A stretch of 64,000 bases of DNA from the NCBI GenBank assembly GCA_022575985.1, contig JAKSXM010000040.1, forward strand, positions 15,704,001 through 15,768,000. Direction: 5' to 3'. Position numbers and translations under genes: made by a program. Positions 9,717-40,118 of this stretch are shown piece by piece (the stretch's first letter is position 1; every line of letters begins with the position of its first letter). The notes under the pieces are model-generated. The model did no database searches. It was given only the letters and a program-made list of their open reading frames with translations, and was not told where the DNA came from. This stretch comes from Anagrus nilaparvatae. Its lineage: Eukaryota; Arthropoda; Insecta; Hymenoptera; Mymaridae.

Positions 9717-10507
9717 CCTATGAAAAGCACCAAGTAAAGCAGTTTAAAGCTTAAAGAAGTTTGTGAAACTACATTTTTTTTTTCTAAATGATCACCTTAA
9801 ATTTAATTTAGTTGTCGAAATACTCAAATTTACCTACCTCCTTATGTTGATTTTTAAAGTTTACATAATAGTTGAGCAACATCTCAAAAAATAGTAACTG
9901 CAGTTATTTACTATAATCTAGCAAACTGAAAATTAAATGAAAAATAAAAATTTTAGTTTATTTTTCAGTTTAAGTAATATGTCGAAAGAAATACTTTTTT
10001 TTTTACGACAACCCTCAAGGCCGTAAATAAATAGTAGATTAAACTTTCCCTAGACTCAGCAAAAAAGAATGTTTTTATTTTCATATTTTAAATCGTGATA
10101 AGACGTTAAATATTTTAAGTAATTTAAATTTGATTTATTTATCATTTTTTTATAACTGAGTTGTTGAAATACACAAGTTTTTCTCCGCGTGTTGTTTTTT
10201 ATTCAAGGGTTTATTTAGCAGAAAATTATTTTACAGAAATTATAGGTAGATACTGAAATCTAGTAAAATTAATAATTTTTATTACTCGTTTGTAATTCTT
10301 AAACAATAATATTTATAATCGACCTTTTTACGAGTACATAGTATTAAATGAATTTACAAATTCATCGCCCACGCTTTTTATATGCGGATGCTTATCGTCA
10401 TCTCTTTTTTTATTAAGGCATACAAAGCGGCGACATTAGATGAATTTTTAAACTTATTTAAAAATTTGAATTTACGCGGATTTTAAATGTCGGTACAGAA
10501 GGTACCT

Positions 10508-10581
10508 AGCGTTTCGATCAACACTAACACATAGATCTCATCAGTGTAGTTGTGTGTGTTAGTGTATGTGCGACAGACGCT
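10508..10581 (-). ncRNA. Hammerhead ribozyme, left-arm copy
   Basis: Read on the minus strand, the order is the same as in the right arm: stem III AGCGU, cleavage base C (10576), stem I, the core CUGAUGA (10544-10538), stem II GAUC/GAUC, GAA and the closing ACGCU (10512-10508). Core bases are all intact. Stem I is weaker than in the other arm: the UGUCGC strand faces ACUACA, so only three base pairs form at the cleavage end before a mismatch. Activity may therefore be reduced. Confidence 0.65.
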
Positions 10582-10735
10582 GATGTAAACACGTCCTTAT
10601 TTAACTCGCATTTCAATAAATATATATATATAACATCATTTCTTATATACAGAACAGATGGCTAAAGCAATGTGAGTCGTCCTCACAAGTGCTAAAATCG
10701 CCATTTGTTAACTATAATAAGGACGTGTTTACATC

Positions 10736-10809
10736 AGCGTCTGTAGCACATACACTAACACACACAGCTACACTGATGAGATCTATGTGTTAGTGTTGAT
10801 CGAAACGCT
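10736..10809 (+). ncRNA. Hammerhead ribozyme (type III), right-arm copy
   Basis: All conserved elements occur in order. Stem III 5' strand AGCGU is at 10736-10740. The cleavage-site C is 10741, giving GUC before the cut. Stem I is UGUAGC/GCUACA (10742-10747 with 10767-10772). The core CUGAUGA is at 10773-10779. Stem II GAUC/GAUC is at 10780-10783 with 10798-10801. GAA is at 10802-10804. The stem III 3' strand ACGCU is at 10805-10809, with the A15.1-U16.1 pair intact. The open helix is III, so this is a type III topology. Loop I and loop II contain 11-nt complementary stretches (10752-10762 and 10786-10796), suitable for the loop-loop contact that natural hammerheads use. The RNA would cut itself after 10741. 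Assignment rests on matching the consensus by eye. Confidence 0.85.
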
Positions 10810-11639
10810 AGGTACCTTCTGTACCGACATTTAAAATCCGCGTAAATTCAAATTTTTAAATAAGTTTAAAAATTCATCTAATGTCGCCGCTTTGTATGCC
10901 TTAATAAAAAAAGAGATGACAATAAGCATCCGCATATAAAAAGCGTGGGCGATGAATTTGTAAATTCATTTAATACTATGTACTCGTAAAAAGGTCGACT
11001 ATAAATATTATTGTTTATGAAATCTAGTAAGTTGGTTATTAAACGTAAAATAAAAATTTCAGTTTATTACCCAGTTTATGTGATGTGTCGAATGGTGGAA
11101 TCTAAATAGAATTTTGCTGTTTGTACGATCACCCTCTGAAGATTTTAGTAGTGTATATAATTTCTGTGACTTAATTTTCTCAAAAATAAACGTGAAAAAT
11201 TTTTTAAATTTAAATGTTAGTTGAGCATCTCATTAAATAACAGTAATTGCAGGTATTTACTATAATCCAGTAAACTGAAAATTAAATGAAAAATTTAAAT
11301 TTTAGTTTATTTTTCGGTTTATGTGATGTGTAGAATGGTAGGTTCTGAGAAGCACTAGGCTGTTTGTACGATCACCCTCTGAAGATTTTAGTGAATTGTG
11401 CGATTCCTGCTGATTTATGTGTTTCTCAATTTACAATTTAAATTTTTAGAGTTTTTAGAAGAACGCGATAATTAATAAATTATTTCTATATAAAATACTT
11501 TACAGAAATAATAAGTAGAAGCAAAAATCTAGTAAGTTGGATATGAAACGTAAAATGAAAATTTTAGTTTAATATCGAACTTATGTGATGTGTCGAATGG
11601 TGCAGTCTAAATAGAACTTTGCTGTTTAGATTTTTGTTT

Positions 11640-13957: not shown

Positions 13958-15060
13958 AAATACTAGATCAATCTTTCTCTAGAGTGACCAAAAAAGAATG
14001 TTTTTATTTTCATATTTTAAATCGTGATAAGACGTTAAATATTTTAAGAAATTTAAATTTGCTTTTTTTATCATTTTTTTATAACTGAGTTGTTGAAATA
14101 CACAAGCTTTTCTTTACGTGTTGTTTTTTATTCAAGGGTTTATTTAGCAGCAAATTATTTTACACAAATTATAGGTAGATACTGAAATCTAGTAAGTTGG
14201 TTATTAAACGTAAAATGAAAATTTCAGTTTATTACCCAGTTTATGTGATGTGTCGAATGGTGGAATCTAAATAGAATTTTGCTGTTTGTACGATCACCCT
14301 CTGAAGATATTAGTAGTGTATATAATTTCTGTGAATGAATTTTCTAAAAATTAACGTGAAAAATTTTTTAAATTTAAATGTTAATTGAGCATCTCATTAA
14401 ATAACAGTAATTGCAGGTATTTACTAGAATCTAGTAAACTGAAAATTAAATGAAAAATGAAAATTTTAGTTTATTTTTCAGTTTATGTGATGTGTCGAAT
14501 GGTAGGTTCTGAGAAGCACTAGGCTGTTTGTACGATCACCCTCTGAAGATTTTAGTGAATTATGCAATTGCTGCTGATTTATGTGTTTCTCAATTTACAA
14601 TTTAAATTTTTAGAGTTTTAAAAAGAACACGATAATTAATAAATTATTTCCATATAAAATACTTTACAGAAAGAATAAGTAGAAGCAAAAATCTAGGAAG
14701 TTGGATATGAAACGTAAAATGAAAATTTCAGTTAAATATCGAACTTATGAGATGTGTCGAATGGTGCAGTCTAAATAGAACTTTGCTGTTTGTACGATCA
14801 CTCTCTGAAGGTTTTTGAATTTAATATACTCTCTGTGAAATATTTATATTACGAAATAAGTTTGAAACACTTGATAATTTTAATGTTTATAGGGTAAAAC
14901 ATTAATTTTCAAAATGTGCATCTAATTTTTACAATCTAGTAACCTGAAGTTTATATATACAATGAAAATTTCAGTATAATATTCAGTTTATGTGATGTGT
15001 CGAATGTTGGTTACTGGAAGGTACCTAGCCGTTTGTACGATCACCCTATGAAGATTGTAC
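13958..15060 (+). repeat. Tandem array 2 of the ~240-bp unit (segmental copy of array 1)
   Basis: GTTTGTACGATCACCCTCTG or close variants occur at 14283, 14525, 14788 and 15031, spaced 242, 263 and 243 bp, the same spacing order as array 1. The upstream flank (AAATCGTGATAAGACGTTAA) also matches array 1. This copy lacks the foldback insertion and shows the intact site at 14184-14195. A short diverged piece of the same unit also lies at about 20110-20155. Confidence 0.7.
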
Positions 15061-15264: not shown

Positions 15265-18200
15265 GGGTAGATGAACCAGTGAATGACCAGTTTCACATTT
15301 TTTTAACTTTCGGTGGATTAATTTGTATAAAAACTTAGTTGGAAAAAAAAAATATTTTTGATAAAACTTTTTTTTAAGGTCTAAAAAATACATTAAAATG
15401 GTTTTTTTGTTAAATAATTGAATATTTTTTTAATTATGAATATTTTTGTTTAAGACCATGAAAAACGCCAGTGAATGACCGGTTAATCCTAGTAAATGAC
15501 CACTAAGGAACCAGTAAATGACTAATTTTTAAATAATGATTTTGATATGAAATTTTTTAATTTTTTAAAAAACTATTAATAATTTTAATATTTCTTATGG
15601 AATTTAGTGAATAGGAAATGTAATTTTTTTTTTTAGTAAACAAAAGGAATATGATCAATATTAATTTTCTCCTGTATGAGAAACCTAATAATATTTATTT
15701 ATAAATATAATTTGTAATTTTAAATACAATTATTATCACATTTTAATAAATAGGTAATGTAATTTTATTATAGTCTTTATAATTTTTTAAATTTTTACTA
15801 TAACGTAAAAAACATAATACACTTGTATAACTTTTTAATAATTTTCATTAATCATTTTTTAACTTTCAATATTCAACAATATATCACAATTTTTAAATAA
15901 CACTGGTAAATAACTTTTATTTTTCAAACATATTTTTAAATTCAATTATTTTAATTATATTTCAATAACTTTATTTTTTTATTTATAATTTACTTTGGTT
16001 CACTAAGTCTTAATTCTCTTTTCTTTAACTCTTCTTTTTTGTTCTTTTTCTTCAAGCTTAGGCTACCTTTTTTCAGCTAATTCTTTTTTTTTAGCTTCTG
16101 CTTCTTCTTGCTTAATTTTTTTATTTAATGCACGATTCTCTTTTTTCATCTCCTTTTCAAGCCTTTCTTCTTCTTTTTTCTTTAAATTTTCTAGCTGCAA
16201 AGCTCTATATTTTTTAGATGTTATAGCGTATATTTCAGGAGCCTTTGCTTTTTTCCCCTTTGATGTTATATTTTTTGGAAAGTGTAGGTGACTTTCCCAA
16301 ACCTCGTCAATTTCTTTTTGGGTTATAATTTTTAATTTATTATCTACAGCGACATCAGTTAATGATGAATTTTTATTCTCAGAGTTTTTTAAAATGTCCA
16401 ATTCGTTTATTTGAACAACATGAGTATTAGCTACAGCATCTGTAAATGTTATAAAATTATTGTAGGAATAAAGCGAAAGAAATGTATTCAAAATACATTA
16501 CTAATAACGGTATTCTCAGTTGCACACCCTTGGTGATTTAAATTGTTTACATTGACCTCTGGAACAGTTGTAAGAGATTTAAATTCTCCTGGAATGTCTA
16601 TAATTTCAAGAGTAGAAGAATCCTTATTTAAATTGATATCTTGGATCTCCGGAGCAGTTGGCCTGAATTCATTATCCAACTGTTTATTTACCATAATATC
16701 TCCTGGAATATCCATAATTTGATGACTAGAATAATCCTTATTAAAATTGTTACTTTGGACCTCAGAATCTATTAAATTATCTGCAAGAGTCTCATTGGAA
16801 AAAGGCTCATTACTCGAATCAATGCAGGAAATTTCTATGGGATGTGAAGGCACTTCAACAAAAAGAACAGTTTCATTATTTGAAGAACTAACTGTTGACA
16901 AATGCAGCTGATCCTTCTGAGTTTTCCAATACCTAAATAAAATTTTTTCATTATCTGGCTCTAAGTCTGCATTATAAGAATCTTGAAATGCTTATAAAAT
17001 TTCATCAGGTATACTTGACTCTAAACTACTTAAAATATTTTTGTTTAAACTAATTAATTCTTCATTATGTAATGCATTTGAAGATTCATTTTCACAATTA
17101 TTTCCATAACTTTTAAATCTGTTTGACATACATTTCTTGTAATCGACTGAGTCAGGATTAAAAGGATATAATCCACAGCAATTAAAAGCTTTTTGGATCA
17201 CATTACTATTTGATGATTGACGAAAAGCAATATCAAATAAAGAAGCAAAATTTCTTTTAGTTATGGGTACGTTGGATTTTTGAGAATGTTGCTGAACTAC
17301 TTTCTTCCAAGCTATTTTCAAAGGCCTAAAAATAACAACATCGCAAGGCTGAAGAATGTGTGTAGCATGAGGTAAAAAACAAAAAATAAGAATCCCATGT
17401 TTTGAACAAAAGTCACTTAGTTCTAAACTAACATGTGATTTATGGCCATCTAAAATTATCACAATAGGAAACTTCACTTTATTAGTAACTAGTTGCGGAT
17501 AAAAGCAATTCACAATATATTCGTAAAATGTGCATGATGTCATCCATCCATTTTCACTATGACCTAAAGCGTATCCATTAGGTACAGAAGAAGCAACATC
17601 ACTAGGAATTTTCCTTTTATAAGGATACACTATTAAAGGTCTAATTGATCGACCATCTGCAGCATAAGTACATAAAACTGTTATATTTTCTTTTTCTTGT
17701 CCTGGTGAAATTGAATACAAGTTTTTTTCTTTACGCACTCCAAGTACTTTACCTGTTGAATAATATTTGTATAATTTTTTTGCATTTAAAATACCTTTAT
17801 TAAAATATTTTACCTGTTTTAGGGCATAATTGCATTCCTGTTTCATCCATATTGTATATCCTAGAAGGATCTTCTAAAATTTCAGAAGCATTTTCTTCAT
17901 TGAGGTATCGTCTAAAATCCTTAAACCATTCTCTTATCCTTTGCTCAGTTACTGCTGCTCTACTTTTGCATAATACTTCTGTATTTTTTAAGCCAATTTG
18001 AGGATGTCTTCGTAAAAACAAGTTCATCCATTTCTTGCCTGGTCTGTTATTAGTAAATGGATTTTTACGTTTTAACTTGACTAAAATATTTTGAACAGAA
18101 TCTTTGACTACTTCAGGATGCATAGGATAACCAATCATGGCTTTAGCGATGATCCAGTGTTCAATTCTTTTTTCTTCGTCATTAGTTAAAACTGGTGGAG

Positions 18201-19191
18201 GTCCCATTCTCCTATTTAGAGGAGTAGTTTCATGCAGCTTATTTATTAAAGTGCCCTTTGGAATATTGTATTCTTGTGAAGTTCTATTTGCAGTAAGGAT
18301 GTTATTCCTAACAGAATTTAATGCTTCATTCAACTGCTCCTGGCTGTAAGAGAATCTTTTCCTATATTTTCTTTTGCATTTTGGAGTTTTATTTATTTTT
18401 TTTTCAAATTTTTTTGAAATATTCTTATCTTTTTTTGCTTTGCCTTTCATCTTTTACTGATTTCAACTGGAAATAATTAAATTGTAAGTGAAATTTTTAA
18501 AAAACTAACTTAACAATTGACATTATAGTATTTTAGTATATTTTAATAAATTAGGTAAAAAATTAAGTAAAAAAAATTAACTATTATTTGAAATTAATTC
18601 ATAAAGTAAAAAAATTATATTTTGATTCATGCAACATGCAGAAATTATTTAATTTAACAAAAAATTAAATATATACTTACACGTCAACTTTAACAGTCAT
18701 TTACTGGTTATATAATTTACCATCGGATCCAGTAATTTGACTAGTGGTCATTCACTAGAATCACCTACATTACCGATTCCCAATAAATGACTGCTGATTA
18801 ATTTAAATTAAAAGTCAAATGGCGGTAATTTTCGATTAAAATATCTTTAAAAATTATTTTTCAAACACTTTTTAATAATATTAAAGAAAGAAACACCTTT
18901 TAGTGGCATTTTATTTTTCTAAATAGAATTTCCCAGTTTGGACGATGTTTCATACTTTTACTAAAAAAATGGCGTTTTTTCGTAATCCTTGAATAGCCTA
19001 ATCATTATTATTTTTTACTCGACTGCGGTAGACGCTGGGTATAATATAATTATGCGAAATGGAAACTTATACATTTATTTATGAAATCATGGTTTAATAT
19101 TTACATTTTTATAAAATAATAAAATTTAAGAATTAATAAATCGTGATTCGGTCATTCACTGGAGGCCGGTCATTCACTGGTTCATCTACCC
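15265..19191 (-). mobile_element. Nearly complete pogo-type DNA transposon
   Basis: The ends are GGGTAGATGAACCAGTGAAT and its exact inverse, 24-bp terminal inverted repeats (15265-15288 and 19168-19191), flanked by TA on each side (15263-15264 and 19192-19193), as in the Tc1/mariner/pogo group. Subterminal copies of CCAGTGAATGACC occur several times inside both ends (about 15469, 18700-18760, 19150), presumably transposase binding sites. One three-exon transposase gene fills the element on the minus strand, interrupted by a single stop codon. Confidence 0.9.
16063..18450 (-). pseudogene. pogo/Tigger-like transposase, three exons, one premature stop
   Basis: Exon 1 is 18450-17814, exon 2 is 17752-16502 and exon 3 is 16439-16063. 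Both introns (about 61 and 62 nt) have GT-AG borders and phase 1. Joined, they give about 754 codons. A Psq-type helix-turn-helix lies at about residues 33-75 (TSQEYNIPKGTL). A CENP-B-type DNA-binding domain lies at about 85-160 (PGKKWMNLFLRRHP). The DDE domain has acidic residues D202 (YNMDETG), D314 (ILDGHKSH) and D350 (LQPCDV), a DD35D spacing usual for pogo elements. An Asp/Ser-rich stretch and a Lys/Glu coiled coil close the C-terminus. TAA at 16994-16992 (codon 466) interrupts the frame just after the DDE domain; the reading resumes in frame beyond it. A protein truncated there would keep all catalytic residues. The start was chosen as the only ATG before the Psq domain. Confidence 0.85.
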
Positions 19192-32357: not shown

Positions 32358-33114
32358 CGCTTGCATTATCCAAGGTTACCCCGCTTGAATTATCCAACAG
32401 GCCCCCAGATTGCATTATCCAACAGGTTATCCCGCTTGGATTATACAACAGGCCCCTCGCTTGCATTATCCAAGAGGTTACTCCCCTTGCATTATCGAAG
32501 AGTTTATCCCTCTTGGATTATCCAAGAGGCCTCCCGGTTGCATTATCCAAGAGGTTATCCCGCATGGATTATCCAACAGGCCCCCCGCTTGCATTATCCA
32601 ACAGGTCCCCCGCTTGCATTATGCAAGAGACCCCCGCTTGCATTATCCAACAGGCCGCTTGCATTATCCAACAGGTCCCACGCTTGCATTATCCAAGAGG
32701 CCCCCCGCTTGCATTATCCAAAAGGCCCCCACTTGCATTATCCAAGAGGCCCCCCCGCTTGCATTATCCAAGGCGTTATCCCGCTTGGATTATCCTAGAG
32801 GCTCCCCGCTTGCATTATCCAAGAGGTTATCCCGCTTAGATTATCCAAGAGGCTCCCCGCTTGTATTATGCAACAGGTCCCCCGCTTGCATTATCCAAGA
32901 GGATTTCCCGCTTGGATTATCCTAGAGGCTCCCCGGTTGCATTATCCAAGAGGCTCCTTACTTGCATTACCAAAGAGGTTATCCCGCTTGGATTATCTTA
33001 GAGGCTTCCCGCTTGCATTATCCAAGAGGTTATTCCGCTTGCATTATCCAAAAGGTTACCCCGCTTGCATTATCTAAAAGGTTCTCCCGCTTGGATTATC
33101 CAAGAGGCCCCTCG
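32358..33114 (+). repeat. GC-rich ~25-bp minisatellite, left part
   Basis: Units alternate between CTTGCATTATCCAAGAGG and CTTGGATTATCCAACAGG cores joined by TTATCCCG or CCCCCCG spacers, 24-26 bp each. About 30 units lie here. All three plus-strand frames are largely free of stops, which generates several spurious ORFs. The array resumes at 37910 after the Transib insertion. Confidence 0.9.
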
Positions 33115-34734
33115 CACAATGGGACGAAGTCCTATTGTGCCACCCAAATTACTCTACAGGTCGTATATTTTTAGTTTATGAATAAATTTTTTTTTTTAAA
33201 TATTTGTTTTCGATTTCTCTTGTTAGAGGGATTGTTATCCCTCATTCCAATTTTTTAATTAGAACTTGCAGTTTTTTTTTTATTTGTTAGAAACTCATTC
33301 TTTTTCTAAAAAACACATTTTTTATGGTAAAATTAACTCTAAAATGCTCAAAATTGAAGTTTTCACATCAAATATTTTTTTAAATTCGTTGTCTTGATGA
33401 GCTTTTGAAAGTGTTCTAACAAAAAGCTTAAAAACAAATTTAATTATTTCAAAAATGGCCAAAAGTGGCCAAAAATGTGTTTATTATTAATATTTCCTAG
33501 CAAAACTATTTAAAAAGTATATGATTCATAGTATCATTCTGAAAAATATATCTGCTTTTATTTACACGATTATTGTTGAACTTTTTTTTATTGAAATTTT
33601 AATATTTAAAATGGTGGACACAAAATATCGATCAATTTTCAAATATATTCCATTTTTTAACCCATTAAATCCTAAGAAGAATCTGCATTTGCCAGAGCTG
33701 TAAAACCTAATCTATTTAGGGCATTTGAATAAAATTAGTAAAATAAAACAAAAAGAAATTTCAAAATGGTGGACATTTAAAAATGGCGGATTAATATGGT
33801 AGTCAGAAAAATTTAAATTTTGATATTTTTTGATAATAATTACGGAATTAATAATTACGGAACCAATATGGCCACTGAAAAACGCGAAATTTCGAGATTT
33901 TTGACTATTTTGAGCCTGAGAAGAAACTGTAAGTTGTATAACCATATAACCGGTTTCATTTACGGCATTTGAACAAGTTATGTGAAAAAATAAAATTTTT
34001 TTCAAAAAATTCAAAATGGCGGATCAATATGGCGGACACAAAAAACTAAATTTCGTTATTTTTTTGTAAAAATTTGTGTACAGGGTATTTTTGGGATGCT
34101 CATTACGAATATCTGTCTATTTTAAAATGCGAAATTTCAAGATTTTTAATGATTTTGAGCCTTAGAAGCTTCTGTAAGTTTATAAAATAGCGATCAATTT
34201 TCAAAATTAATCCATTTTTTAATGATTTATAGCTTCTAGAGCAAGGCAGTCTTCTAATTTGTAAAATAAATTCAAAATATATTTTTTCCAACGACTTCAA
34301 AATTAAATATTTTAATGGCTACAGAATCTTTTTTTTTCTTTAATGCCTTCACATTTATTAAGTACCTCATTTTGTGTCAGAATTTAAAGTAAATATCAAA
34401 AATCGATAATCTAATTTGCTGAATAATAAATTTAATTTTCATAACCTTGTTACTTGAAGCTTAAATTAAAGATTAAAAAAAATACAATAAATATATTTTA
34501 ACGTAGAATTGTATATAATTATATCTCTAGTATATAAATAATCGAAATAAAACAAAGTTGCACTTATTTCATGAAAATAGGCAACATCGCATTTGTCTTT
34601 GCAAACTTCCTTCAAAATGTGTGGCAACATTGTTGAGCAGCAGAATTATTATTATTATTATTAAATTTATTTCAGAATTGAAAGAATTATATAATAAGGA
34701 AATAAATCAAATATTAACATAATCTAGAACTAAT

Positions 34735-35931
34735 TACCAAATACGGATGTGATGGTACTTCTGGATTCTCGCAGTACAAACAAATTTTTAGTGAATCAAA
34801 AAATATTGAAGGCAGTAGTGTTTTTATTATGTGCATGGTTCCTCTTTTATTGCGCTTTACTCAAAGAAGGAGTAATGAAATCATGTTTTGGGAGAATTAA
34901 AACCCGTCCTCAACTAGACTTTGTCGACCAGTGAAATTTACGTATGAAAAAGAAACTCAAGAATTAATTAAGCTTGAAATGGATAACCTTCAAGATCAGG
35001 TCCGCAAACTTATTCCTACAACAGTGTTATTAGATGGACGTAAAATAATAATAAAATACACATTGTTTTGTACAATGTTAGATGGTAAAGTTCGTCAGGT
35101 TTTAACAGAGACAACTTCGTCACAAAGATGTTCGATTTGTGATGCTCTGCCCAAAGAAATGAACAATTTAGAAACTGTATTGAAAAAAGAAATAAAAAAT
35201 GAATCCTATACATACGGACTATCAAATTTACATGCTTGGATACGATGCATGGAGTGGATACTTCATCTTCCTACAGATTCTCGGCAAAGGTATTCAAATA
35301 TTATGAAAAATTGACTGCTGACGAAAAATTAGAAATCGCATTGAAGAAGAAGGAAGCTATAGATAATTTTAGAGAAAATTTGAATATGCTTGTAGATACT
35401 GTGGAACAAGGAGCTGGAAATACTAACGATGGAAACACTGCTCGTAAATTTTTTCAAAACTATAATGATGTTGGGGATATAACAGGAATTGATAAAGAGT
35501 TTCTTAAAAAACTCTACATCATTTTACAAACTATATCATCAAAACATTGTATTAACATCCCAGCCTTCAAAAATTACTGTTTAGATGCTGCAAAAATATA
35601 CATAAAAAATTATTCTTGGTATCCTATGCCTTCTTCTTGTCACGCACTCTTAATCCATGGACCAGCAATCATAGAAACGTTTGCGGTACCAATTGGATTT
35701 CTATCTGAAGAAGCGCAAGAAGCGCGTAATAAAGATTTTAAGAAATGTCGAGAAAACTTTACTCGTAAAGCAAAATCAGAATTTACTAATGAGGATATTA
35801 TGAGATATTTGTTTGCATCTTCTGATCCATATATTTTTAAATTAAGAAATTTAACTAGTAATAAAATAAAGGAACTTCATCCAGAGGCAAAGAATTTAAT
35901 TATTTCTGAGGAAAATTATGATTCAGTATAA
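34735..35931 (+). pseudogene. Transib transposase core fragment, frameshifted
   Basis: The first frame reads YGCDGTSGFSQYKQIFSES and then MVPLLLRF..; an in-frame TGA stop (near 34900) follows EIMFWEN. The frame returns as RLCRPVKFTYEKETQEL, runs to TMLDGKVRQVLTET and a zinc-type pair CSICDALPKEMN, then LHAWIRCMEW. A frameshift near 35265-35290 leads into KLTADEKLEIAL, GNTNDGNTARKFFQNY, MPSSCHALLIHGPAI and LSEEAQEARNKDF. These are the hallmark blocks of Transib and the RAG1 core. The three catalytic acids are preserved: Asp at 34751-34753, Asp at 35081-35083, Glu at 35719-35721. The N-terminal part is missing upstream, and the reading ends at TAA 35929-35931. It is inactive as it stands. Confidence 0.85.
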
Positions 35932-37909: not shown

Positions 37910-40118
37910 CCCCGCTTGCATTATCCAAGAGGTTATTCCGCATGGATTATCCCCCCCGCTTACATTATCAATAAGTTTACCCTGGTTGGATTATCCAACA
38001 GGCCCCCCGCTTGCATTATCCAAAAGGTTATCCCGCTTGGATTATACAACAGGCCCCCTGCTTGCATTATCCTTGAGGTTATCCCGCTTGCATTATCCAA
38101 GAGGCCCCCGCTTGCATTATCCAATAGCCCCTCCCACTGGAATTATCTAAGAGCCCCCCCCCCCACTTGCATTATCCAAGAGGTTTTCCCGCTTGGATTA
38201 TCCTAGAGGCTCCCCGCTTGCATTATCCAAGAGGTTATCCCGCTTGGATTATCTTAAAGGCTCCCTGTTTGCATTATCTAAGAGGTTATCCTGCTTGGAT
38301 TATCTTAGAGGCTTCCCGCTTGCATTATCCAAGAGGTTATTCCGCTTGCGTTATCCAAAAGGTTACCCCGCTTGGATTATCCAAGAGGCCCCCCGCTTGC
38401 ATTATCTAAAAGGTTATCCTGCTTGGATTATCCTAGAGGCTCCCTGCTTGCATTATCTAAGAGGTTATCCTGCTTGGATTATCTTAGAGGCTTCCCGCTT
38501 GCATTATCCAAGAGGTTATTCCACTTGCGTTATCCAAAAGGTTACCCCGCTTGGATTATCCAAGAGGCCCCCCGCTTGCATTATCTAAAAGGTTATCCTG
38601 CTTGCATTATCGAAGAGGCTCCTTGCTTGCATTATCTAAGAGGTTATCCCGCTTGGATTATCTTAGAGGCTTCCCGCTTGCAGTATCATAGAGGTTCCCC
38701 CACTTGTATTATCTAAGAGGCCCCCCCGCTTGCATTATCCAAAAGGTTATCCCGCATGGATTATCCAACAGGCCCCCCGCTTGCATTATCCAAGTGGTTA
38801 GTTATCCCGCTTGGATTATCAAAGAGGTCCGCCGCTTGCATTATCCAAGAGCTTATCTCGCTTGGATTATCCAAAATGTTACAGCCCTTGCGTTATCCAA
38901 GAGGTTATTCCGCTTGGATTATCCAAAAGGTCTGCCGCTTGGATTATCCATGTGGCACCCCGCTTGCAATATCCATGAGGCACCCCATTTGTATTATCCA
39001 AAAGCTTTCCCCGCTTGCATTATCCAAGAGGTTATTCCGCATGGATTATCCCCCCCGCTTACATTATCAATAAGTTTACCCTGGTTGGATTATCCAACAG
39101 GCCCCCCGCTTGCATTATCCAAAAGGTTATCCCGCTTGGATTATACAACAGGCCCCCTGCTTGCATTATCCTTGAGGTTATCCCGCTTGCATTATCCAAG
39201 AGGCCCCCGCTTGCATTATCCAATAGCCCCTCCCACTGGAATTATCTAAGAGCCCCCCCCCACTTGCATTATCCAAGAGGTTTTCCCGCTTGGATTATCC
39301 TAGAGGCTCCCCGCTTGCATTATCCAAGAGGTTATCCCGCTTGGATTATCTTAAAGGCTCCCTGTTTGCATTATCTAAGAGGTTATCCTGCTTGGATTAT
39401 CTTAGAGGCTTCCCGCTTGCATTATCCAAGAGGTTATTCCGCTTGCGTTATCCAAAAGGTTACCCCGCTTGGATTATCCTAGAGGCTCCCTGCTTGCATT
39501 ATCTAAGAGGTTATCCCGCTTGGATTATCCTAGAGGCTCCCCACTTGCATTATCCAAAAGGTTATCCCGCTTGGATTATACAACAGGCCCCCCGCTTGCA
39601 TTATCCAACAGGTTGCCCGCTTGTATTATCGAAGAGGCTCCTTGCTTGCATTATCTAAGAGGTTATCCCGCTTGGATTATCTTAGAGGCTTCCCGCTTGC
39701 AGTATCATAGAGGTTCCCCCACTTGTATTATCTAAGAGGCCCCTCCGCTCGCAGTATCATAGAGGTTCCCCCACTTGTATTATCTAAGAGGCCCCCCCGC
39801 TTGCATTATCCAAAAGGTTATCCCGCATGGATTATCCAACAGGCCCCCCGCTTGCATTATCCAAGAGGTTAGTTATCCCGCTTGGATTATCAAAGAGGTC
39901 CGCCGCTTGCATTATCCAAGAGCTTATCTCGCTTGGATTATCCAAAATGTTACAGCCCTTGCGTTATCCAAGAGGTTATTCCGCTTGGATTATCCAAAAG
40001 GTCTGCCGCTTGGATTATCCATGTGGCACCCCGCTTGCAATATCTATGAGGCACCCCATTTGTATTATCCAAAAGCTTTCCCCGCTTGGATTATTATCTA
40101 AGAGGCTTTCCACTTGGG
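37910..40118 (+). repeat. GC-rich ~25-bp minisatellite, right part with 1.1-kb higher-order repeat
   Basis: The unit is as in the left part. A block starting CCCCGCTTGCATTATCCAAG followed by GTTATTCCGCATGG occurs at 37911 and again at 39010; the later part (ACTTGTATTATCTAAGAGG...) recurs about 1.07 kb further on. The array therefore doubled as a ~1.1-kb block. Long ORFs here are side effects of absent stop codons. Confidence 0.9.

Follow-up and report, generated by a model that had tools for sequence, protein, structure and literature searches.

Anagrus nilaparvatae carries a family of short, non-coding tandem arrays in which each unit of about 505 bp contains one type III hammerhead motif, and these arrays are likely the insertions of a retrozyme-like, non-autonomous retroelement that is moved by Penelope-type reverse transcription, probably from a circular RNA of the ~505-nt unit. 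One member lies in the window, that is, the whole stretch of 64,000 nucleotides that was analysed (C79:15704001-15768000, in an assembly of 489 Mb and 393 contigs that was searched for relatives). The kind of element is known; the variant and its anatomical link to the priming of Penelope-like elements (PLEs) appear to be new.

Results

The hammerhead at 10736-10809 (+) has 15 of 15 pairs and was recognized by sequence read, Rfam model and descriptor. The 5' strand of helix III (AGCGU, 10736-10740) is followed by C17 at 10741; helix I consists of UGUAGC (10742-10747) and GCUACA (10767-10772), the core of CUGAUGA (10773-10779) and GAA (10802-10804), and helix II of GAUC (10780-10783) and GAUC (10798-10801), and ACGCU (10805-10809) is the 3' strand of helix III. 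Everything that defines a type III hammerhead was found, namely, a CUGANGA core, GAA, the A15.1-U16.1 pair, H17, three helices, and an open helix III, and the cleavage bond is predicted between 10741 and 10742. The direct read thus bears out the original prediction of a complete hammerhead with GUC triplet, CUGAUGA, GAA, and A15.1-U16.1 in order and agrees with its helices of 5 (III), 6 (I), and 4 (II) bp and the open helix III.

A covariance search with the type III model, suggested as a check, did return the motif (RF00008, 33.4 bits; E = 3.4e-5 for the 901 bases searched), but below the gathering score of 48.5 bits, which is a curated threshold and no mechanistic feature; an Rfam scan of the entire 64-kb window gave no match at gathering level. 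The full descriptor (helix III ≥4, helix I ≥5, helix II ≥4, CUGANGA, GAAA, and UH) had a single match in the window, at 10736-10809, and was found in 0 of 471 dinucleotide shuffles. Searching the genome with RF00008 gave no match at E ≤ 1 among 68 scored candidates of 40,753, and this search is uninformative, since the known copies were missed as well. Exact ribozyme stretches were not found in the genome-contig and viral-contig collections; a pattern with a looser helix II matched in 28 viral contigs. Matches to the MIR2646 precursor on both strands (90.5 and 89.5 bits, gathering score of 245) were rejected and are due to the near-perfect hairpin of the insertion.

Loop I (19 nt) and loop II (14 nt) share a perfect 11-base complement, formed by ACACTAACACA at 10752-10762 (+) and its partner TGTGTTAGTGT at 10786-10796 (+), with about −15.4 kcal/mol for the free 11-bp duplex. 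Free-energy folding prefers a competing hairpin (−19.3 kcal/mol) over the plain hammerhead (−11.3 kcal/mol), and the 74-mer folds barely better than shuffles (z = −1.5). The competing hairpin is built on the same complement, which could instead form a loop-loop pseudoknot on the hammerhead; the free-duplex value makes a pseudoknotted hammerhead plausible, short of proof. Helices I and II that differ in length by 2 bp have been tied to pseudoknots in type III hammerheads (Perreault 2011, PMC3088659), and the wasp helices, alongside the loop complement, show this difference too (6 versus 4). That the motif is a chance look-alike within a repeat is, in our view, highly improbable: the RF00008 score, the folding preference, and the lack of a selection signal (see below) would agree with it, but neither the empty result with the shuffles nor the unit-length tandem arrangement, which is typical of hammerhead retroelements, nor the loop complement combined with the 2-bp helix difference would be expected.

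The motif was predicted to lie in an inverted-repeat insertion, and it does: two arms of 306 nt, 98% complementary, stand 114 nt apart. The inserted element spans 751 bp (10267-11017) and is flanked by a 13-bp target-site duplication, TGAAATCTAGTAA, at 10254-10266 and 11018-11030, whose right copy overlaps the last unit-matching bases (to 11021). When the flanks are joined with one copy of the 13-mer, they match a paralogous empty site at 14053-14326 (+), which has its single 13-mer at 14183-14195, with 96.35% identity over 274 bases and no gap. The ungapped empty site and the duplication delimit the element as a clean insertion, and the site that received 10267-11017 is, by this comparison, one of the copies of a local repeat. 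The inverted arm (10267-10601, −) runs from unit position ~337-339 at its outer, long end to position 1 at its inner end; the direct arm (10599-11021, +) covers unit positions 381-505 and then 1 to 302-306, its outer, short end, so that each arm holds less than one unit. A TATATATA-like run at 10620-10632 (+), 5' of the ribozyme, was read from the sequence as a possible promoter. In the inverted arm, the mirror hammerhead (10508-10581, −) keeps the core and 4 of 6 pairs of helix I, scores 28.9 bits with RF00008 (gathering score of 48.5), and fails the full descriptor. The claim of one hammerhead per arm is therefore true of the motif but not of two intact ribozymes.

Relatives in the assembly amount to at least 309 matches, with 40 of 601 candidates scored. 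From the matches listed we analysed 32 insertions, including the window copy (WIN) and L002, a sample that therefore leans to good copies. Left out were L043 (a duplicate of L042), loci overlapping sampled ones, and L003-L005 and L007-L009, which are copies of the L002 insertion in an amplified satellite (86 to 93% to L002). The insertion at L002:1350-2400 itself lies within a ~115-bp tandem satellite and was amplified with it at several places. Twenty-two of the 32 insertions have an inverted centre, nine are direct-only, and one (L037) is incomplete in the sampled stretch. Sixty-five full units of 501 to 509 bp were found, each with one hammerhead, and in inverted arrays the ribozymes point away from the centre. 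The arms reach about 15 units, the longest measuring 7,476 bp (C161). Hence, the foldback element assumed in the original prediction is not the design of the family, which consists of tandem arrays, inverted or direct, with the window copy as one of its short members. Short, non-coding tandem units with one hammerhead each are what is found in retrozymes, and the pointer to retrozymes and Penelope-like elements was in the right direction, given the arrays, the asymmetric ends, the duplications, and the empty site.

Two further family places, outside the 32 insertions, lie on scaffolds C62 and C95. Mitochondrial pieces in these scaffolds are 95 to 99.8% identical to the type of contig C18 and 72 to 74% to planthopper. 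The nearest relatives of the COX1 of C18 are hymenopterans, mostly chalcidoids (best 82%), and contig C146 is the mitochondrion of the brown planthopper (100%). The C18-type pieces assign scaffolds C62 and C95, with their family copies, to the wasp. In C146, C18, C244, and C264, the assembly has two insect sources of COX1, planthopper and wasp; further fragmented COX1 genes, some next to GIY-YIG frames, seem by their sequence to resemble fungal intron-bearing genes.

Of the inverted insertions, all but L053 and L057, which are incomplete in the sampled stretches, have two readable ends, and these 20 of 22 all have one long end (335-346 by BLAST) and one short end (297-310). Fortuitous similarity to the flanks makes BLAST ends imprecise, and we corrected them by the duplication; in the 18 inverted insertions with a duplication of at least 12 bp, long ends then lie at 333-346 and short ends at 294-302, with a difference of 34 to 46 bp (median, 40.5). 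A small extra left match in L034 and L041 and a 32-base trailing match in L056 were set aside. The direct-only arrays have either a long end (L048, L050, L051, and L060) or a short one (L047, L049, L052, L054, and L059). Duplications of 12 to 15 bp, end microhomology included, flank 21 of the 32 insertions, that of L051 being an A/T run. For 16 of the 21, no more than 2% of offset controls reached the same length; those of L033, L034, L036, L042, and L002 were matched by 5 to 13.5% of controls and are not clearly above them. Of the other insertions, two have 8 bp, two have 6 bp, and seven have no duplication (three of them incomplete in the sampled stretches). The ends inspected show no poly-A separating the unit from the duplication.

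This anatomy is that of Penelope-like elements. A purified PLE protein of Anolis cuts and extends both DNA strands, reverse transcription starts at two adjacent internal RNA sites, and the sequence between them is the 30- to 40-bp "tail" of genomic copies (Frangieh 2024, PMC11167929). Head-to-head inverted pLTRs that differ in length by 37 bp, with a tail of 31 bp and duplications of 8 to 10 bp, are also on record (Arkhipova 2013, PMC3846280). In the wasp, a tail of this kind is present at one of the two head-to-head ends in 20 of 20 readable cases, next to short target-site duplications and the empty site. Asymmetric ends, 12- to 15-bp duplications, and an empty site are, as far as DNA can tell, the mark of Penelope-type target-primed retrotransposition.

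Inversion and duplications of such size also occur in the twin priming of LINEs. A SINE-like RNA inserted in this manner, unrelated to PLEs, is nevertheless very unlikely here: although LINEs are named as an option by the authors of the retrozyme work (PMC7229834), outer ends on two fixed RNA sites ~40 nt apart are the signature of a PLE tail, and the ends inspected lack poly-A. Foldback elements have long inverted repeats with tandem subrepeats and a similar look. A true foldback or TIR DNA transposon, or a MITE, with an incidental hammerhead should have equal inverted termini and duplications of fixed length, whereas the termini here differ by ~40 bp, the duplications vary from 12 to 15 bp, the centre junctions are scattered, and 9 of the 32 sampled insertions are direct-only; we rejected it as extremely unlikely.

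Which RNA served as template can be approached through the divergence of the units (297 bases in 115 units from the 32 insertions). Mean divergence is lowest among units of the same arm (0.22%; 235 pairs), slightly higher when the two arms of an insertion are compared (0.30%; 128 pairs), and highest for units of different insertions (1.04%; 6,192 pairs). Full units are present in both arms of 16 insertions, and 7 of these (C161, L034, L035, L036, L042, L045, and L055) have a variant that is fixed in all units of both arms and absent from the other sampled insertions. Within-insertion divergence is 0.00% in L030 (9 units), L034 (11 units), and L040 (4 units) and 0.04 to 0.08% in C161 (17 units). 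It is as high as between insertions in WIN, L038, L041, L052, and L055, which, judged by this divergence, look older.

Furthermore, the inner cDNA ends are spread across the unit in a way compatible with a uniform distribution (KS P = 0.29), and the centre junctions are scattered. Only 1 of 53 inner ends lies within 10 nt of the cleavage site, with 2.2 expected (cleavage bond at unit position 26/27, count centred on 27.5, with the same count for both). A linear cleaved monomer that is copied to its 5' end was rejected as template, since no pile-up at the cleavage site was found. The homogeneous arms of many units are most simply explained by a circle; growth of the array after insertion is a possible alternative source of units.

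A rather unlikely alternative keeps the element and the PLE machinery but takes as template a long, linear multimer transcribed from an array already in place, with the ribozyme incidental to copying. The lengths of the two arms of an insertion correlate (rho = 0.66, P = 0.0009, 22 insertions), which fits a linear multimeric RNA as well as a circle; the Anolis PLE inserts ribozyme-mutant RNA equally well in vitro (PMC11167929); and the array of L035 arose despite a mismatched helix I. On the other hand, the near-identical units of L030, L034, L040, and C161 would need a brand-new source array each time, and 103 of 115 sampled units retain all 15 pairs, so that long transcripts should be cut.

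The integrity of the ribozyme across copies is high. Breakage of the core in other copies, named with the original prediction as a point against a ribozyme, is rare: the fixed elements of the descriptor are intact in 113 of the 115 sampled units, and the two misses concern one core base in L036 and helix III in L055. This retention is no evidence of selection, given the young age of the family and the lack of extra conservation in the ribozyme relative to the remaining unit sequence (variable sites, 5 of 74 versus 22 of 223 elsewhere; P = 0.49, no signal of purifying selection), and it may mirror youth as much as function. Compensatory changes were absent from a 12-row alignment (10 distinct rows). 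In L035, helix I is mismatched in both arms, yet an array was formed; either some loss of pairing is tolerated or the array was made without cleavage.

Discussion

In the cycle that we propose for a retrozyme-like element moved by PLE machinery, an array would be transcribed outward, unit by unit, and the hammerhead, whose motif is plainly present, would cleave the transcript into unit-length pieces, probably with the pseudoknot between loops I and II as a brace. The monomer may then be circularized by a host ligase. Next, both strands of the target would be nicked by a PLE enzyme, and each 3' end would start cDNA synthesis at either of two fixed positions in the RNA, ~40 nt apart, a step suggested by the two fixed ends and the 12- to 15-bp duplications. 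Both cDNAs would copy the same RNA, presumably by rolling circle, from part of a unit to ~15 units, and the joining of their free ends would give [<-unit]n[unit->]m; the arrays themselves, the variants shared by both arms, and the scattered centre junctions are consistent with this last step. We put forward more tentatively, as a possibility of rather less weight, that the two target strands prime on neighbouring sites of one circular RNA in a two-enzyme complex, with both polymerases circling. Inverted insertions always have one long and one short end (20 of 20), and direct-only arrays have either (4 long and 5 short), which fits paired loading and not an independent choice. If this is true, each insertion preserves a record of rolling-circle reverse transcription in both directions.

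Several observations weigh against a retrozyme-like element moved by Penelope-type reverse transcription: the RF00008 score under gathering and the folding preference for another structure, the missing extra conservation and compensatory changes of the ribozyme, the mismatch in L035, the high internal divergence in five insertions, the lack of a PLE sharing unit sequence in four loci (see below), and the five duplications that are weak against controls.

Metazoan non-LTR retrozymes (Cervera and de la Peña 2020, PMC7229834) resemble the wasp element in their non-coding tandem hammerhead units, low G+C, duplications exceeding the 4 bp of plants, and presumed movement by the enzyme of another element. 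They are described as having type I hammerheads (also in PMC11722881) and RNAs of ~170 to 400 nt, whereas the wasp element has type III and ~505 nt and in these two points departs from them. Its arrays are often inverted, and the word "inverted" is absent from the text of PMC7229834. Penelope-like elements (PMC11167929, PMC3846280) share with it the head-to-head inverted copy with one end 30 to 40 bp longer, the short target duplication, and a hammerhead inside the repeat; however, their hammerheads are described as minimal type I (PMC7761336), and the wasp unit has type III and, unlike them, no long ORF. Plant LTR retrozymes (PMC11722881, PMC7761336, PMC7229834) are alike in the type III hammerhead and in non-autonomy. 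The circular RNA reported for them would have its counterpart in the wasp element, whereas their LTRs, PBS, PPT, ~700 nt, 4-bp duplications, and proposed Gypsy helper set them apart.

Type III hammerheads are on record for insects: PMC7761336 names insects as carriers, and PMC7936874 describes motifs in a termite, Drosophila pseudoobscura, and other dipterans, with the atypical form not found in the hymenopterans searched there. The pseudoknotted type III motifs of HDV-like RNA and dipterans in that paper are alike in being insect type III with a Watson-Crick contact between loops I and II, which in the wasp is predicted. Their helices are longer and their loop contact involves 4 bases, in contrast to the 6- and 4-bp helices and the 11-base complement of the wasp, and the termite genomic motifs are described as isolated, whereas the wasp motif lies in tandem units. 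Searches of the open-access literature brought up neither a type III retrozyme whose arrays are inverted nor a retrozyme bearing a PLE tail.

The wasp element offers a lead on the question of which enzyme mobilizes the retrozymes of animals, as its ends carry Penelope-type marks; PLEs have been named a strong candidate for this role (PMC7229834). With insertions that bear the signature of a PLE enzyme, the link between retrozymes and PLEs becomes testable with purified PLE protein. Moreover, a type III hammerhead, usual in plants, is found here in a retrozyme-like element of an animal, and the young insertions allow the geometry of PLE priming, a long and a short end on the same template, to be read from a genome.

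As to a candidate helper, GIY-YIG matches are present in the genome, and some of them are not PLEs. At L044:1814-4471 (−), a PLE has an open frame of 885 aa with one relative at 95% and 27 others at 24 to 38%, many with RT domains; Pfam gave no family for this frame at 0.001. Nothing convincing was common to the unit and the PLE in four PLE-like loci of two families (L044, L064, L095, and L096), and a 702-aa frame at L063 was not recognized as a PLE by eye. Near position 1453 (−) of L044, ~360 nt past the stop of the 885-aa frame, lies a minimal type I-like hammerhead core, CUGAAGA ... GAAACGUC; a frame with such a hammerhead nearby is an arrangement that has been reported for other PLEs.

The window contains further features. 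At 35203-35931 (+), a 242-aa frame matches RAG1 of Pfam below threshold (E = 3e-4), and we take it to be, perhaps, a Transib-like transposase. Two adjoining frames at 16992-18453 (−) with Tc5/Psq-type HTH and DDE_1 domains are perhaps a broken pogo/Tigger-like transposon. A 51-bp minisatellite occupies 32358-33115 (15 copies) and 37952-40094 (42 copies), with several frames open.
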